Positions 4,774 to 9,924 of a DNA stretch of 64,000 nucleotides are shown piece by piece. The DNA is taken from NCBI GenBank assembly GCA_015501595.1, contig JADNRX010000011.1, positions 310,001 through 374,000 on the forward strand. The letters run 5' to 3'. Made by a program: the position numbers and the translations under genes. Position 1 is the stretch's first letter, and every line of letters begins with the position of its first letter. The notes under the pieces were generated by a model that saw only the letters and a program-made list of their open reading frames with translations, was not told where the DNA came from and made no database searches. This DNA is from Hymenopellis radicata (Eukaryota; Basidiomycota; Agaricomycetes; Agaricales; Physalacriaceae).

Positions 4774-6466
4774 TCAAGCCGACTGATTGCGACGTGACCA
4801 AGAGAAGCCCAAAGCACCAATAACCCCGACCACAACAAGCGCTGTCCCGGCACCTATGATACCAGGAAGATAGAGGTACCAAGTACCGTCAATGTCGTCG
4901 ACCTTTGACTGGTCATCAAACAACGCCTTCCCCTCCTTCCGTCGCCTGCGCCTCAGTGCGTCCATGTTTGGCACTAAAGCTTCGATCTGCAACTCAATAG
5001 AAGGCATCTCAAGCTCTTCGGCATCATCACTGACGGGGGGAGGGAGAATAGGAATGTCAAGATCTGGTGCAAGCTCGCGCGCACGGTCAAAATATCGGCC
5101 AGCAGCTTCCCGGTCCCGCTTCCAGAGCGAGTTTGCCCCCTCCAACATATGTCCGCTGGCAGGGATTCGAATAGATGAAAGACTCGAGTGCGATGACGAG
5201 AGAAGGGTTGATGCCGCACCCTCCAGATGGAGCAGCCCAGCTTCTAGGTAAAGCTGAGCGACGCCCCGTTTACCGCCCAAACACTGTACGTAATATGAAG
5301 TCGTTCCTCGATGCGCTTGCTTCTTGCCATGGAAATCTTTGGACTCGACTTTCGTATTAAGAGGGAGATAGTGAGAAACGAGTTTCATCGTGGAAGCCGG
5401 AGCATGAGAGAGATGCCATGCACGCCTAACGAAGAATATTAATACCTTTTGGCAAGTGGCAGTAAGACGTAAACTCACAAGAAGAATTCGAAAGCCTCCT
5501 CTTTATCGTTATGGATATCAAACTGCTCCATCGCGATAAGAATTAGACTCGTGGGGTCCATGTTGTACTGATGCTCAAGCTCGTGGCTCGCATCGAATAT
5601 AACAGAATTGCGAACGTAAGGCGCTAAAGTATCGGGCACTGGGCCGACTATCAGAGAGGGCCAGATGATGGACTGATCCTTCTCAAGATGAAGAGTCAAC
5701 AGGCGGCCTGAAGGAGCAGAGTGTAGGGACTCGAGCGATGAGTAGGAGGACGTGATGCTTTGGATCATATGTCCGGGGGAGACAGCGCGGGAAGCGGTAG
5801 TTGAATTCCTCTTGCTTCGGAAGGGAAACCCTCTTTCATCTGCCGCCGAGGACAGAGCTGGTGATGATAGCGCTGGTGATGAGGCTGTAAACTCTTCCGC
5901 GTCGGATGCTTCCAGTGATGCGGCAAAGCTGCTGGATATTTCCGGGTCGGAGACGAACGCGTAGGAGGAGTGAGTGGATGCAGTAGAAGCCGTTGAAGTG
6001 GTGCGCTCCCTGGCGGACAGTCGGGACGACTGGGGCTCAAGTTGCCAAACAGAGTTTGTGACATCCACATTGCCATACAGGCGCCCCTACACAAGTTCAA
6101 CAGTGGATGACAAGAGAGCAACGGTGAGCGCACCTTAATTATCGGTGATTGTCCCCGCACGCCTGCAATAAGGTAGTTGCGCTCAATTATGACCTACGAA
6201 GCAAGAGTATTGTAAGCGCTTAATGTGATTATAGTTGTATCCAGACTCACCGACATGTCCTCTTCGAGAGTACCGTGCGGAATCATCAGAAGTACAGTGG
6301 CCTGTCCTATTTATGAGGACGCTGAACGGATGGGCTAGTTGAATTCAAGTACCTGGTCGTGAGACTGGCCAAAGCTCATCAGTCATGTTGAAATCCTAAA
6401 GCGCGAAGCAAAGCTCACCTGATGCCATGAGTAGGAGTAGTATCTTTTGTCGTCAGGATTGTCCAT
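4774..6466 (-). CDS. CS-domain (p23/Hsp20-like) protein with C-terminal membrane anchor
   Basis: Six exons on the minus strand (6466-6419, 6364-6353, 6301-6251, 6193-6134, 6086-5479, 5425-4774) join to 476 residues. The N-terminus reads YYSYSWHQ, then ATVLLMIPHGTLEEDMSV and a GRLYGNVD...WQLE segment, the strand order of a CS/p23 fold used by Hsp90 co-chaperones. A Ser-rich linker follows at about residues 95-190. The second half is helical and TPR-like (YLEAGLLHLEGA, GRYFDRARELAPD). A membrane segment near the C-terminus (about 450-470, GIIGAGTALVVVGVIGALGF) is followed by a short basic tail, so it is probably tail-anchored. Exon 2 is only 12 nt and is inferred from frame alone. Convergent with the kinase gene, with under 170 bp between the coding ends. 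Exact role unknown. Confidence 0.75.
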
Positions 6467-6789
6467 GAGAGTCGTGAAAGAGAGAATGTTGTGGGGAAGT
6501 TGATGGAAGGAAGCAGCTCTCTGAAAGTGGCGCAACCGCAACCGCCGATGACCACGTGATTGTGACACGTTCTGAGTCGTAACCCACGCTAAAACTGCGT
6601 GGTCGTCTAATGATTTGGTCTTATAGCAGTGCTGCTGCATAAAATACATACGCCATCATTCTAGCCGAGTCATATTCCTTCGATGAGGACCGTCCTTTTT
6701 CGGCTCATTTGCCTCCGTTCGCTCTGTGCGGCGATCATCGATGGGATGGCCGCCCAATTGAGCAAGCTTGCACCACGACCCCGACTGTC

Positions 6790-8021
6790 ATGTACTCCTG
6801 GGATATCGACTTCTTAAATCAAGTGCCCTCGTCGCGCGGTGTGAAGCGGGCACTCATTATTCTCAATCAGCCATTCTCCTGGACACTACTCAACCGTCTC
6901 TGGAACAACTGCGAATTCCGACTCTGTGCAGACGGTGGTGCCAACAGACTCCACGATACAGCAAGAATAAAGGAACAGTCAGTCTTTTGGACTCATTGCT
7001 GGTTCAAATTCTGAGCTGCATAGGTTTCTTCCGCATGCAGTTATCGGCGATCTGGACTCCATTCGAAAAGACGTTCGAGATTTCTATTCGCGTCAGGTAT
7101 GCCTGTCCATACTCTGCTTTGTATGGCATATCTCATATGAAGACAGGGTGTAGTTGTACACCAGGACCATGATCAGGATTCGACGGACTTGATGAAGTGC
7201 ATGCAATCGGTAACTGAACAACAAGGCGACGAGGTGTGCATCATGCTGTTAGTCTGGACTAGATATCTGAAATACTCCTCTGAAGCTATGGGAAGTAATC
7301 CTTCTTGGTGGTCTCGCTGGTCGCTTAGACCAGACCATACACTCACTCTCTTATCTTCATAAACTTCGCAAGGACAAGACGAAGCGAGTATTTGCTGTTA
7401 CCGACGATAATCTGGGCTGGGTGCTAGACAGTGTAAGTGAATGCGTGCCGTGGCGAGCTTCGTGATCCTAAGTCGTTTAGGGAGAGCATTCGATAAAGGT
7501 TGACCATAGCAGTTGGGGTAAGACCTGTGGTCTACTTCCCGTTGGAGTAGACCAGACGATTCTTTCAACAAAGGGTCTTGAGTGGAATCTTAGTGCGTCC
7601 GACTGCTATAGGTCTTTTCGTTTTGTTGATATCTATTATTATAGCCGAACAAGAATCATCCTTCGACACTCTTGTCTCCACATCAAATCATCTTGTCCGT
7701 GATGAGAGTATAGTGTGGATAGAAACATCAAAGCCGATATGGTGGACAGTTGAGCTTCATGTCGAGGTACATGTTTTGTATTTCGCAGGCGCCTTGACAG
7801 CAACTGGGGTCTCGGAGGAGCTTGTACCGATTCCCATAAGCGGGTTCTTGTTGGACAAGCTGGGGGATCTCCTCATTTCCCGTCATCCTAATTCCGGGTT
7901 GGATAAAGTGCTCGAGAACTCACAGTGGAGTGTCAATGAAGAGATGATTGACAATCCAGCCACTTTTGAACTCACTGAGGGTGCAGAGATTGCAGTGATA
8001 TGTCCCGTATCTGGGGGATAA
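6790..8021 (+). CDS. Thiamine pyrophosphokinase fused to MoaD/MOCS2A-like sulfur carrier
   Basis: Six exons (6790-6977, 7024-7096, 7147-7233, 7286-7432, 7481-7593, 7646-8021) join in frame to 327 residues. Residues about 1-235 are thiamine pyrophosphokinase, which makes TPP from thiamine and ATP: LCADGGANRL, VIGDLDSI, QDSTDLMKCM, LLGGLAGRLDQTIHSL and the C-terminal B1 domain (STSNHLV, WWTVEL). The frame runs on without a stop into about 90 residues resembling the small subunit of molybdopterin synthase: VHVLYFAGA, GVSEEL, SQWSVNEEM, and a terminal CPVSGG. The exposed Gly-Gly end is what MoCo sulfur carriers need for thiocarboxylation. No in-frame ATG precedes the second module, so it cannot easily be made alone. 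Introns 1 (GTCAGT) and 5 (GTGCGT) have weak donors. Confidence 0.75.
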
Positions 8022-8142
8022 ATACTTTTGTTAAGCTACATTTTATGACATAGTATTACATAGATGTTGCAAGTAAAGTCCTGATGTAATGACACAAGTC
8101 TAGAGAAGATGAACTGAAGAGGAACAAACTCGTGCAACTACG

Positions 8143-9385
8143 CTAGGACTTCCCGAAAATATCACTGCTAAGAGACGCAAGAAATTCGTCTGCTTCAGTC
8201 CTGACCGGTTTATGCTTCCCGCCAGCTTGACGCTCCAAGTCAGCGAATGGATCGACATCAGCCGTCGACGCTGCGACGTCAACGGTAGCGGCAGCTTTGT
8301 TGGGGGTAAGCAACGGCGCCGCTGGTTCCGCCGGATTCTGTTTCCGCCTCTTTGCCTCAATCTGCCTCCGCCGTGCCTCGGTTTCCGCCTTCCTCTTCGC
8401 AAGCGCAGTTGTCTTTCCGTCCGATGGCGCTACCATCCCTTCTACCGTCTTGCTCTCCGCGCCCGTCTCCTGGCGGTGACGCACCGTCTCTGCACGAATG
8501 TCGTCGAGCTCTTGGCGCAGATTCAATCGTGCTTGTTCGTCTAACCCGGCGAAGTTGAGAAATCCAGCACCCATTTGACGATTGTCCTTGGACGCATCGA
8601 AGTGAACTTCCGGAGATTGGGTCTCAGCAGCCAGAGCTTCTTCGATCTTCTTGACACGGTCGGCAGACGGTTCGTAGACAGGGAAGTGGTTGATGGGATT
8701 GTATATTACATCTCTATTCAGAGGAGTTAGGATGAGCAGAAGAAAAATGGGATCGACATACGCATCGTCATCAGGCTCTTCATTTAGATACTGGCGGGGT
8801 ACCTCCGACTGCCGAACCGAACGTGTGCGACCATGTTCGTCCATGTATTCGACCATGGGATCCTCTACATCCTAAATCAAGTCAAGAACGGAACAAACAG
8901 TACCGTTGGGTAACGCACATTGGTTGCTGTCGGCACTGTCAAGGATTCGTCCTCGTCCTCAGAATCCGGTTCCCATTTACCGAGGGGTTGAGAGTCGAAA
9001 TCGACCTGTAAAGCGGCAATCTGCGCCTCGCTCAGGCCTCCAGTTTTGCCCCTCCTCAGCTTGTCGTAGATCTTTGACTTTCGAGCCAGTGCAGCAGATG
9101 CTTTCTCAAGTGTGGGCTGACTTATAGCCTCTAGCTGAGCGTCTCTGCCGGCCCGCTCGTGGACACCTTTGTTGCTCCGTGCCCATATAGTTGGCTTCTA
9201 CGCGTAGGATGAGTCTCCGTTCGGAATGGATGAATGCTATCAGAGCTGACTTTCTCTCGTCGTGGCCGTTTGATACCCTCCGCTTTCGCTCTCTTCAGGT
9301 CTTCCTTCTGTGCGGCGAGTTCTGCCTGAAGACTCAGAAATGAGCTAGCACTGACGCCATTTGCTTTCGACTTCGATGAGTGCAT
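8143..9385 (-). CDS. CCDC174-like nuclear coiled-coil protein
   Basis: Four exons (9385-9251, 9197-8919, 8871-8762, 8713-8143) join to 364 residues. Hallmarks of the CCDC174 (DUF4078) family are in order: SSFLSLQAELAAQKE near the start, KPTIWARSNKGV.ERA, KSKIYDKLRRGKTGGLS, VDFDSQP, then DEHGRTRSVRQSEVPR and MGAGFLNFAGLD. The C-terminal third is highly charged (KRKAETEARRRQIEAKRRKQ) with a predicted coiled coil and nuclear-localisation-like clusters. The family is linked to the spliceosome/exon-junction machinery in animals. The donor of intron 1 is GTCAGC, an unusual but usable GT site. It is convergent with the TPK gene: only 121 bp separate the two stop codons. Confidence 0.8.
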
Positions 9386-9924
9386 AAAGACAAGGTAATT
9401 GACACAGCCACAATTCAATCTGTGGTTCGGCACGCGTTGCCGAAGCCTGCGTCCTACATCGACGAAGTTGAATCGAGTATTGTTCGTTCCGTTCAGAACT
9501 CAACGGGTCAGCTGTATTATTCCTTCAGACTTTCTGTGGCGGGAAGGAAATTTCAGACACCGTTTCAGCACACTTTCCTTCATCCATGGAAGACTCCTTC
9601 ACGAGCTAGCTCGTTGCTGCTTTTCTCTTCGATTCCCTGTATGGGCACCCGGCTCCAACCGTGTTCATCTCGTCACCTTCTTCACAAAACGGTGAATATC
9701 TGTAGCTTATGAGCTGGACAATTTCTACTTCTGTGTGAGTTCAGTGAGTCACCCGGTACGTTGTCTGATATTCTTTTCAGAGGTGAGTAGAACCAATCAG
9801 AACTTCCCCAAGTCTAGTCGGGAGCTCTCACCTGGTCATCTGCCCGTGAATCTGTCAACTTATAGTTGACATATAAACGTGGGGTGTAATCTTTCCCACT
9901 TCCCCCCATTCTCACAGTCTCATA
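9386..9924. promoter_or_regulatory. Divergent promoter region, CCDC174-like / SDR
   Basis: About 540 bp lie between the two divergent start codons and no coding frame was recognised. A TATA-like ATATAAA sits at 9871-9877, 48 bp before the SDR start codon, and is followed by a pyrimidine-rich stretch typical of fungal transcription starts. No TATA was seen on the CCDC174 side. Confidence 0.45.

Follow-up and report, generated by a model that had tools for sequence, protein, structure and literature searches.

A gene on the forward strand of the Hymenopellis radicata genome (75 Mb in 1405 contigs) encodes a thiamine pyrophosphokinase (TPK) that runs directly into a molybdopterin synthase sulfur carrier of the MOCS2A type and, judged by its sequence and by those of its relatives, is an inherited gene fusion and not an error. 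The gene lies at 6790..8021 of the window, by which we mean the whole 64,000-nucleotide stretch analysed (C113:310001-374000). We regard the fusion as inherited because the same gap-free junction occurs in three genera that form a supported clade, and a single event in the ancestor of Hymenopellis, Guyanagaster and Cylindrobasidium, after which the fused gene was kept, seems the best explanation of these sequences. It is probable that the protein is bifunctional and uncleaved and that it arose from neighbouring genes through one fusion event; we infer that each half is active, that the chain stays uncut and that the two genes were once neighbours, and likewise the stoichiometry and any regulatory coupling. 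A TPK-MOCS2A fusion is not described in the open-access literature searched (titles and the beginnings of abstracts), so that within this scope the combination of two familiar parts has no earlier description.

The original prediction had given the gene these coordinates, six exons and a 984-nucleotide frame, all of which is correct. The features are as follows.

6790..8021, + strand: whole gene, TPK-MOCS2A fusion, 327 residues in six exons, identical to deposited protein P0001
6790..6977, + strand: exon 1, with the start codon at 6790
7024..7096, + strand: exon 2, GDLDS motif
7147..7233, + strand: exon 3, DQDSTD motif
7286..7432, + strand: exon 4, GGLAGRLDQ motif
7481..7592, + strand: exon 5, start of the thiamine-binding domain
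7645..8021, + strand: exon 6, with the end of TPK, the junction and the entire MOCS2A module; stop at 8019-8021
6892..7384, + strand: TPK catalytic domain, residues 35-149 (PF04263, profile match), split by introns
7484..7742, + strand: TPK vitamin B1 binding domain, residues 167-235 (PF04265, profile match), split by intron 5
7740..7775, + strand: junction WWTVEL-HVE-VHV, with the last TPK strand (234-240), one residue, and the first carrier strand (242-248)
7767..8018, + strand: MOCS2A/MoaD sulfur-carrier module, residues 244-327, ending CPVSGG (profile and structural matches)

The joined exons make up 327 codons and a stop, and the deposited H. radicata protein P0001, also of 327 residues, is 100% identical to the translation. 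All five introns are GT..AG and measure 46-52 nucleotides; a stop would appear if intron 1 or 4 were retained, retention of intron 2, 3 or 5 shifts the frame, and ending intron 3 at a different acceptor (7295) was rejected, as it breaks the frame. The junction-spanning stretch of the protein reads WWTVELHVEVHVLYF. Its WWTVEL (residues 235-240, 7740-7757) is followed from residue 242 by the carrier in one uninterrupted exon, and because the entire junction lies inside exon 6 the join is independent of any splice call. The prediction had found neither a stop nor an in-frame ATG at the junction, which is borne out, and an intron of canonical size was not found there either. In the joined frame ATG codons stand only at residues 1, 103, 106 and 303, while in the genomic open reading frame around exon 6 (7551-8021) the single ATG is at 7944, within the carrier.

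The two halves are recognised by different profiles, and the prediction of a sequence encoding both a TPK and a MOCS2A is supported. The TPK part (residues ~1-240) matches TPK_catalytic with E 2.7e-34 (117.9 bits against a curated cut-off of 30.7), TPK_B1_binding with E 1.8e-19 (69.6 bits against 22) and TIGR01378 with E 1.1e-43 (149 bits against 76.4). Its motifs CADGGANRL, GDxDSIR, DQDxTD, GGLAGRxDQ and LVSTSN, which we take to be the telling ones for the roles presumed of them in the enzyme, align with human TPK1. Eukaryotic TPK1/Thi80 proteins share PF04263 and PF04265 with the fusion and end in a short tail where the fusion has a sulfur-carrier module of ~86 residues.

In the carrier part (residues ~242-327), ThiS (PF02597) is matched with E 1.2e-4, at 23.0 bits against a cut-off of 22.5, a line that P0002, P0004 and P0007 among the four joined relatives described below also pass and P0003 (22.1) falls slightly under. 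TIGR01682 moaD is matched over all 80 profile positions with E 1.6e-8, at 35.2 bits and thus under its curated cut-off of 66.15; that threshold was drawn up for prokaryotes, and P0126, a fungal carrier that stands alone, also fails to reach it (36.9 bits). For the fused protein, no match to the URM1 profile PF09138 was listed at or below E 1. The best structural matches of the module are molybdopterin synthase chains (6jbz 14.9, 6jc0 14.4, 5mpo 12.7), with URM1 rows at up to 10.7 and ThiS rows at up to 8.4, in score ranges that overlap (E. coli MoaD 11.9, H. pylori 9.9, archaeal SAMP1 11.7). By this measure the module is predicted to be a beta-grasp of the MoaD type and resembles molybdopterin synthase more than URM1 or ThiS. 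It shares the whole beta-grasp and the C-terminal SGG with the small subunit of molybdopterin synthase (human MOCS2A, 5mpo, and bacterial MoaD; Aspergillus cnxG is presumably the same subunit). In contrast to free-standing MOCS2A/MoaD, it has no ATG of its own and its N-terminus is joined to TPK. The prediction had also reasoned that placing the carrier last leaves Gly-Gly free, and indeed the chain ends CPVSGG and stops, as it does in P0002, P0003, P0004 and P0007; an SGG end is found in 16 of 17 aligned stand-alone carriers.

The prediction knew of no other such fusion; at least two further Physalacriaceae species carry it, in public sequences. A protein search for relatives gave 1640 matches, of which 120 are listed. 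Five of these 120 span 99% or more of the fused protein: P0001, P0002 (Guyanagaster necrorhizus), P0003 (Cylindrobasidium torrendii), P0004 and P0007, the second and third from Physalacriaceae like H. radicata itself. The other 115 cover 64-76% of it, which is the TPK part, and stand-alone MOCS2A appears in other agaricomycetes with 18 matches, for example in Pleurotus, Crassisporium, Auricularia and Hydnum. Across the junction the Physalacriaceae proteins, all three, align without gaps as EL-H-[AV]-[ER]-[IV]-x-VLYFAG, with no separate TPK tail and no MOCS2A start. In 62 agaricomycete TPKs aligned from the 115 unfused ones, 1-14 residues (median 4) follow the L of WWTVEL, and the leaders of unfused MOCS2A vary from 0 to ~35 residues before the VLYFA-type strand motif; with such variable ends, both proteins seem joinable here. 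The three fusions form a clade in the TPK tree (100/94) and in the MOCS2A tree (99/94), the latter being poorly resolved, with 3 of 19 inner branches well supported.

The two remaining joined proteins behave differently. P0004 (Tephrocybe rancida, Lyophyllaceae) lies on the TPK tree among the unfused TPKs of Lyophyllum, Hypsizygus and Tricholomella, and its grouping with the three fusions is rejected there by the approximately unbiased (AU) test (p-AU 0.0066). Its join, ...LKRANLILTIMPEITVLYFA..., reads like a spacer and then the start codon of a MOCS2A, with ...TIMPEIT... as the apparent start, and P0004 may be a merged gene model. P0007 (321 residues) has a different junction, ELRPFTSVRVLYFA, and comes from an assembly whose longest contig is 1157 nucleotides; its unbroken frame of 963 nucleotides suggests an origin in RNA or in an intron-free gene. 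On the TPK tree it stands beside Schizophyllum (98/80), outside the Physalacriaceae fusion clade, on a very long branch and with an odd composition. An independent fusion in P0007 was considered and set aside, as its grouping with the Physalacriaceae fusions is not rejected (p-AU 0.194 for TPK, 0.222 for MOCS2A). Nor is a single clade of P0001-P0004 and P0007 rejected on the poorly resolved MOCS2A tree (p-AU 0.336).

How might such a protein work? In the mechanism we propose, the N-terminal TPK would convert thiamine and ATP to thiamine diphosphate, and the C-terminal module would be the cell's MOCS2A, its free Gly-Gly being adenylated and thiocarboxylated by a MOCS3/Uba4-type enzyme. The thiocarboxylated end would then insert into MOCS2B and give its sulfur for molybdopterin, with TPK carried along at the N-terminus and no need of cleavage. 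From an alignment of 84 rows, AlphaFold2 predicts two domains with high confidence (predicted local distance difference test, pLDDT, 94.4; predicted template modelling score, pTM, 0.88) in which strands 234-240 (TPK) and 242-248 (carrier) are one residue apart; the lowest mean confidence, 76, falls in the last block, 321-327, which includes the SGG tail. Activation of MoaD-type carriers requires a C-terminal Gly-Gly (PMC4326299). An uncleaved dual-function chain is thus the simplest model, as this end stays free. The same source describes MoaX of Mycobacterium tuberculosis, likewise a MoaD-type carrier in a longer chain, where the partner is MoaE, the carrier comes first and is cut free after Gly-Gly, and cleavage is needed for activity; here the partner is TPK and the carrier comes last with its end free. 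Should the fusion be a precursor that a protease cuts at the junction into separate TPK and MOCS2A, MoaX would be its precedent, and the many unfused TPKs and stand-alone carriers suggest that the halves function apart elsewhere. However, the Gly-Gly of MoaX is internal, so that cutting is chemically required, whereas that of the fusion is already C-terminal, a contrast which supports the uncleaved model, and a linker-free junction with one residue between strands should offer a protease little access. We therefore hold such processing to be quite unlikely.

As to origin, the fusion would have arisen once, in the common ancestor of the three Physalacriaceae genera, when two adjacent genes on the same strand lost what had kept them apart: the stop codon of TPK, the spacer, and the codon at which MOCS2A started. 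Crassisporium funariophilum, the only species with both separate proteins among the listed names, has TPK P0008 and MOCS2A P0126, both listed on contigs of 1337804 nucleotides, and together with P0004 this is a hint in the sequences of an old neighbouring pair of TPK and MOCS2A genes. Polycistronic transcripts are known in Agaricomycetes (PMC4503453, the main text of which contains neither 'thiamin-' nor 'molybd-'), and polycistronic transcription is a plausible route to the fusion. A bolder version, in our view rather unlikely, would make TPK and MOCS2A a functional pair in agarics, joined repeatedly from linked or co-transcribed genes, with a TPK dimer whose two carriers dock MOCS2B dimers in a ring or chain and so tie sulfur transfer for molybdopterin to how much TPK there is or to its state, and with it to vitamin B1 status.

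The genome of H. radicata was searched exon by exon, with only the best candidates scored, and within this limited sensitivity it holds one TPK locus and one MOCS2A locus; the separate MOCS2A gene that the prediction had suggested looking for was not found. The TPK family search met the known gene at no better than E 0.003-0.005 per exon, and the lone ThiS-family match in the genome scan is URM1 (C30:1388-1630; PF09138, E 4.2e-37, 126.9 bits), which like the fused module is a beta-grasp sulfur carrier but is a separate gene, belongs to PF09138 and ends HGG. Matches above cut-off to MoaE/MOCS2B, the MOCS1-type Mob_synth_C, MoeA_N and Oxidored_molyb show a genome equipped with the molybdenum-cofactor pathway and with client enzymes, and the fused module is consequently, on these sequence matches, likely the sole MOCS2A of the species. 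MoaE and MoeA_N each match two contigs of similar layout (C1269/C463 and C927/C707), possibly two haplotypes; TPK-MOCS2A is found on a single contig.

Several observations weigh against a bifunctional, uncleaved protein that arose once from neighbouring genes. The ThiS-family scan is insensitive, since even the fused module is missing from its results, and with the TPK E values also weak a diverged second copy could escape. The neighbouring-gene origin draws on the P0008/P0126 pair and the sequence of P0004, and on nothing else. The word-based protein search is incomplete: its carrier-region run missed P0004 and P0007, though both carry the module. Armillaria and Flammulina are well-sequenced Physalacriaceae, and no TPK of theirs, fused or unfused, is among the 120 listed of 1640 matches; perhaps their gene models fall outside the length limits of the search. 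Finally, near-cognate start codons lie in frame between residues 226 and 262 (7713 GTG, 7719 ATA, 7731 AAG, 7737 ATA, 7776 TTG and 7794 TTG). The first four precede or begin the last TPK strand and would, if used, which is unlikely, give a whole carrier with a short leader; the last two are inside the carrier.

One gene could in this way yield two products, by a non-AUG internal start (7713 GTG to 7737 ATA) or by removal of the 22 nucleotides 7767-7788, which begin GT and end AG. The product of such removal would be TPK with HVEAP as a short tail, much as in unfused TPKs, whose tails of 1-14 residues are compatible with it. Ribosomes would nevertheless have to bypass the start at 6790 and other ATGs, and the 22-nucleotide stretch is less than half the length of the gene's other introns. 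A length of 22 nucleotides is below the size that fungal splicing is known to handle. Moreover, bases 7767-7788 code for the conserved VHVLYFA strand, which accounts for their GT..AG look, and we judge two products very improbable. That a gene-model or assembly error merged two adjacent genes is even harder to credit. Merges of this kind probably do occur, P0004 with its apparent MOCS2A start being one candidate and P0121 (Mycena venus, 360 residues) another: it has a MOCS2A-like N-terminus, a metallo-beta-lactamase domain and no SGG end, and looks like a merged gene model. The join in the window, however, lies within one open exon and recurs at the same length in two other genera, hardly expected from independent errors. 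Equally remote is a functional TPK with a mere passenger for a carrier, one that has lost its part in making the molybdenum cofactor: across the three genera the carrier half is conserved no less than the TPK half (66.7-73.8% against 62.6-66.5%) and keeps SGG, and the exon-by-exon search found no other MOCS2A in a genome with MOCS2B and molybdenum enzymes.

We know of nothing that connects the activation of thiamine with the making of the molybdenum cofactor, and we know of no use of a ThiS carrier for thiamine in fungi. A linker-free fusion in three genera would force a 1:1 supply of proteins from separate pathways, a natural case in which to ask whether gene fusions reflect function or mere gene neighbourhood. 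As the prediction suggested, the fusion may couple the two cofactor pathways or may do no more than share a promoter. The human MOCS2 locus is bicistronic and likewise places MOCS2A on a shared transcript, but there MOCS2B is the partner, and the two are produced as separate proteins. In the databases P0001 is called thiamine pyrophosphokinase, and one source calls P0002 molybdopterin synthase sulfur carrier subunit; each name covers half of the protein only. Physalacriaceae are dated to ~86 million years (PMC8480192), an age for the family and not for the fusion.

Around the gene, a scan of 5500-9500 gave no thiamine pyrophosphate riboswitch or other Rfam element at the gathering threshold. 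Upstream, the opposite-strand frames 4774-5502 and 5475-6086 (both -), within 4774-6086, have no Pfam match at E 0.01. Downstream, a convergent open reading frame at 8143-8871 (-) has its stop ~120 bases past that of the fusion and matches DUF4078 (E 1.6e-9), with a CCDC174 domain match under cut-off.
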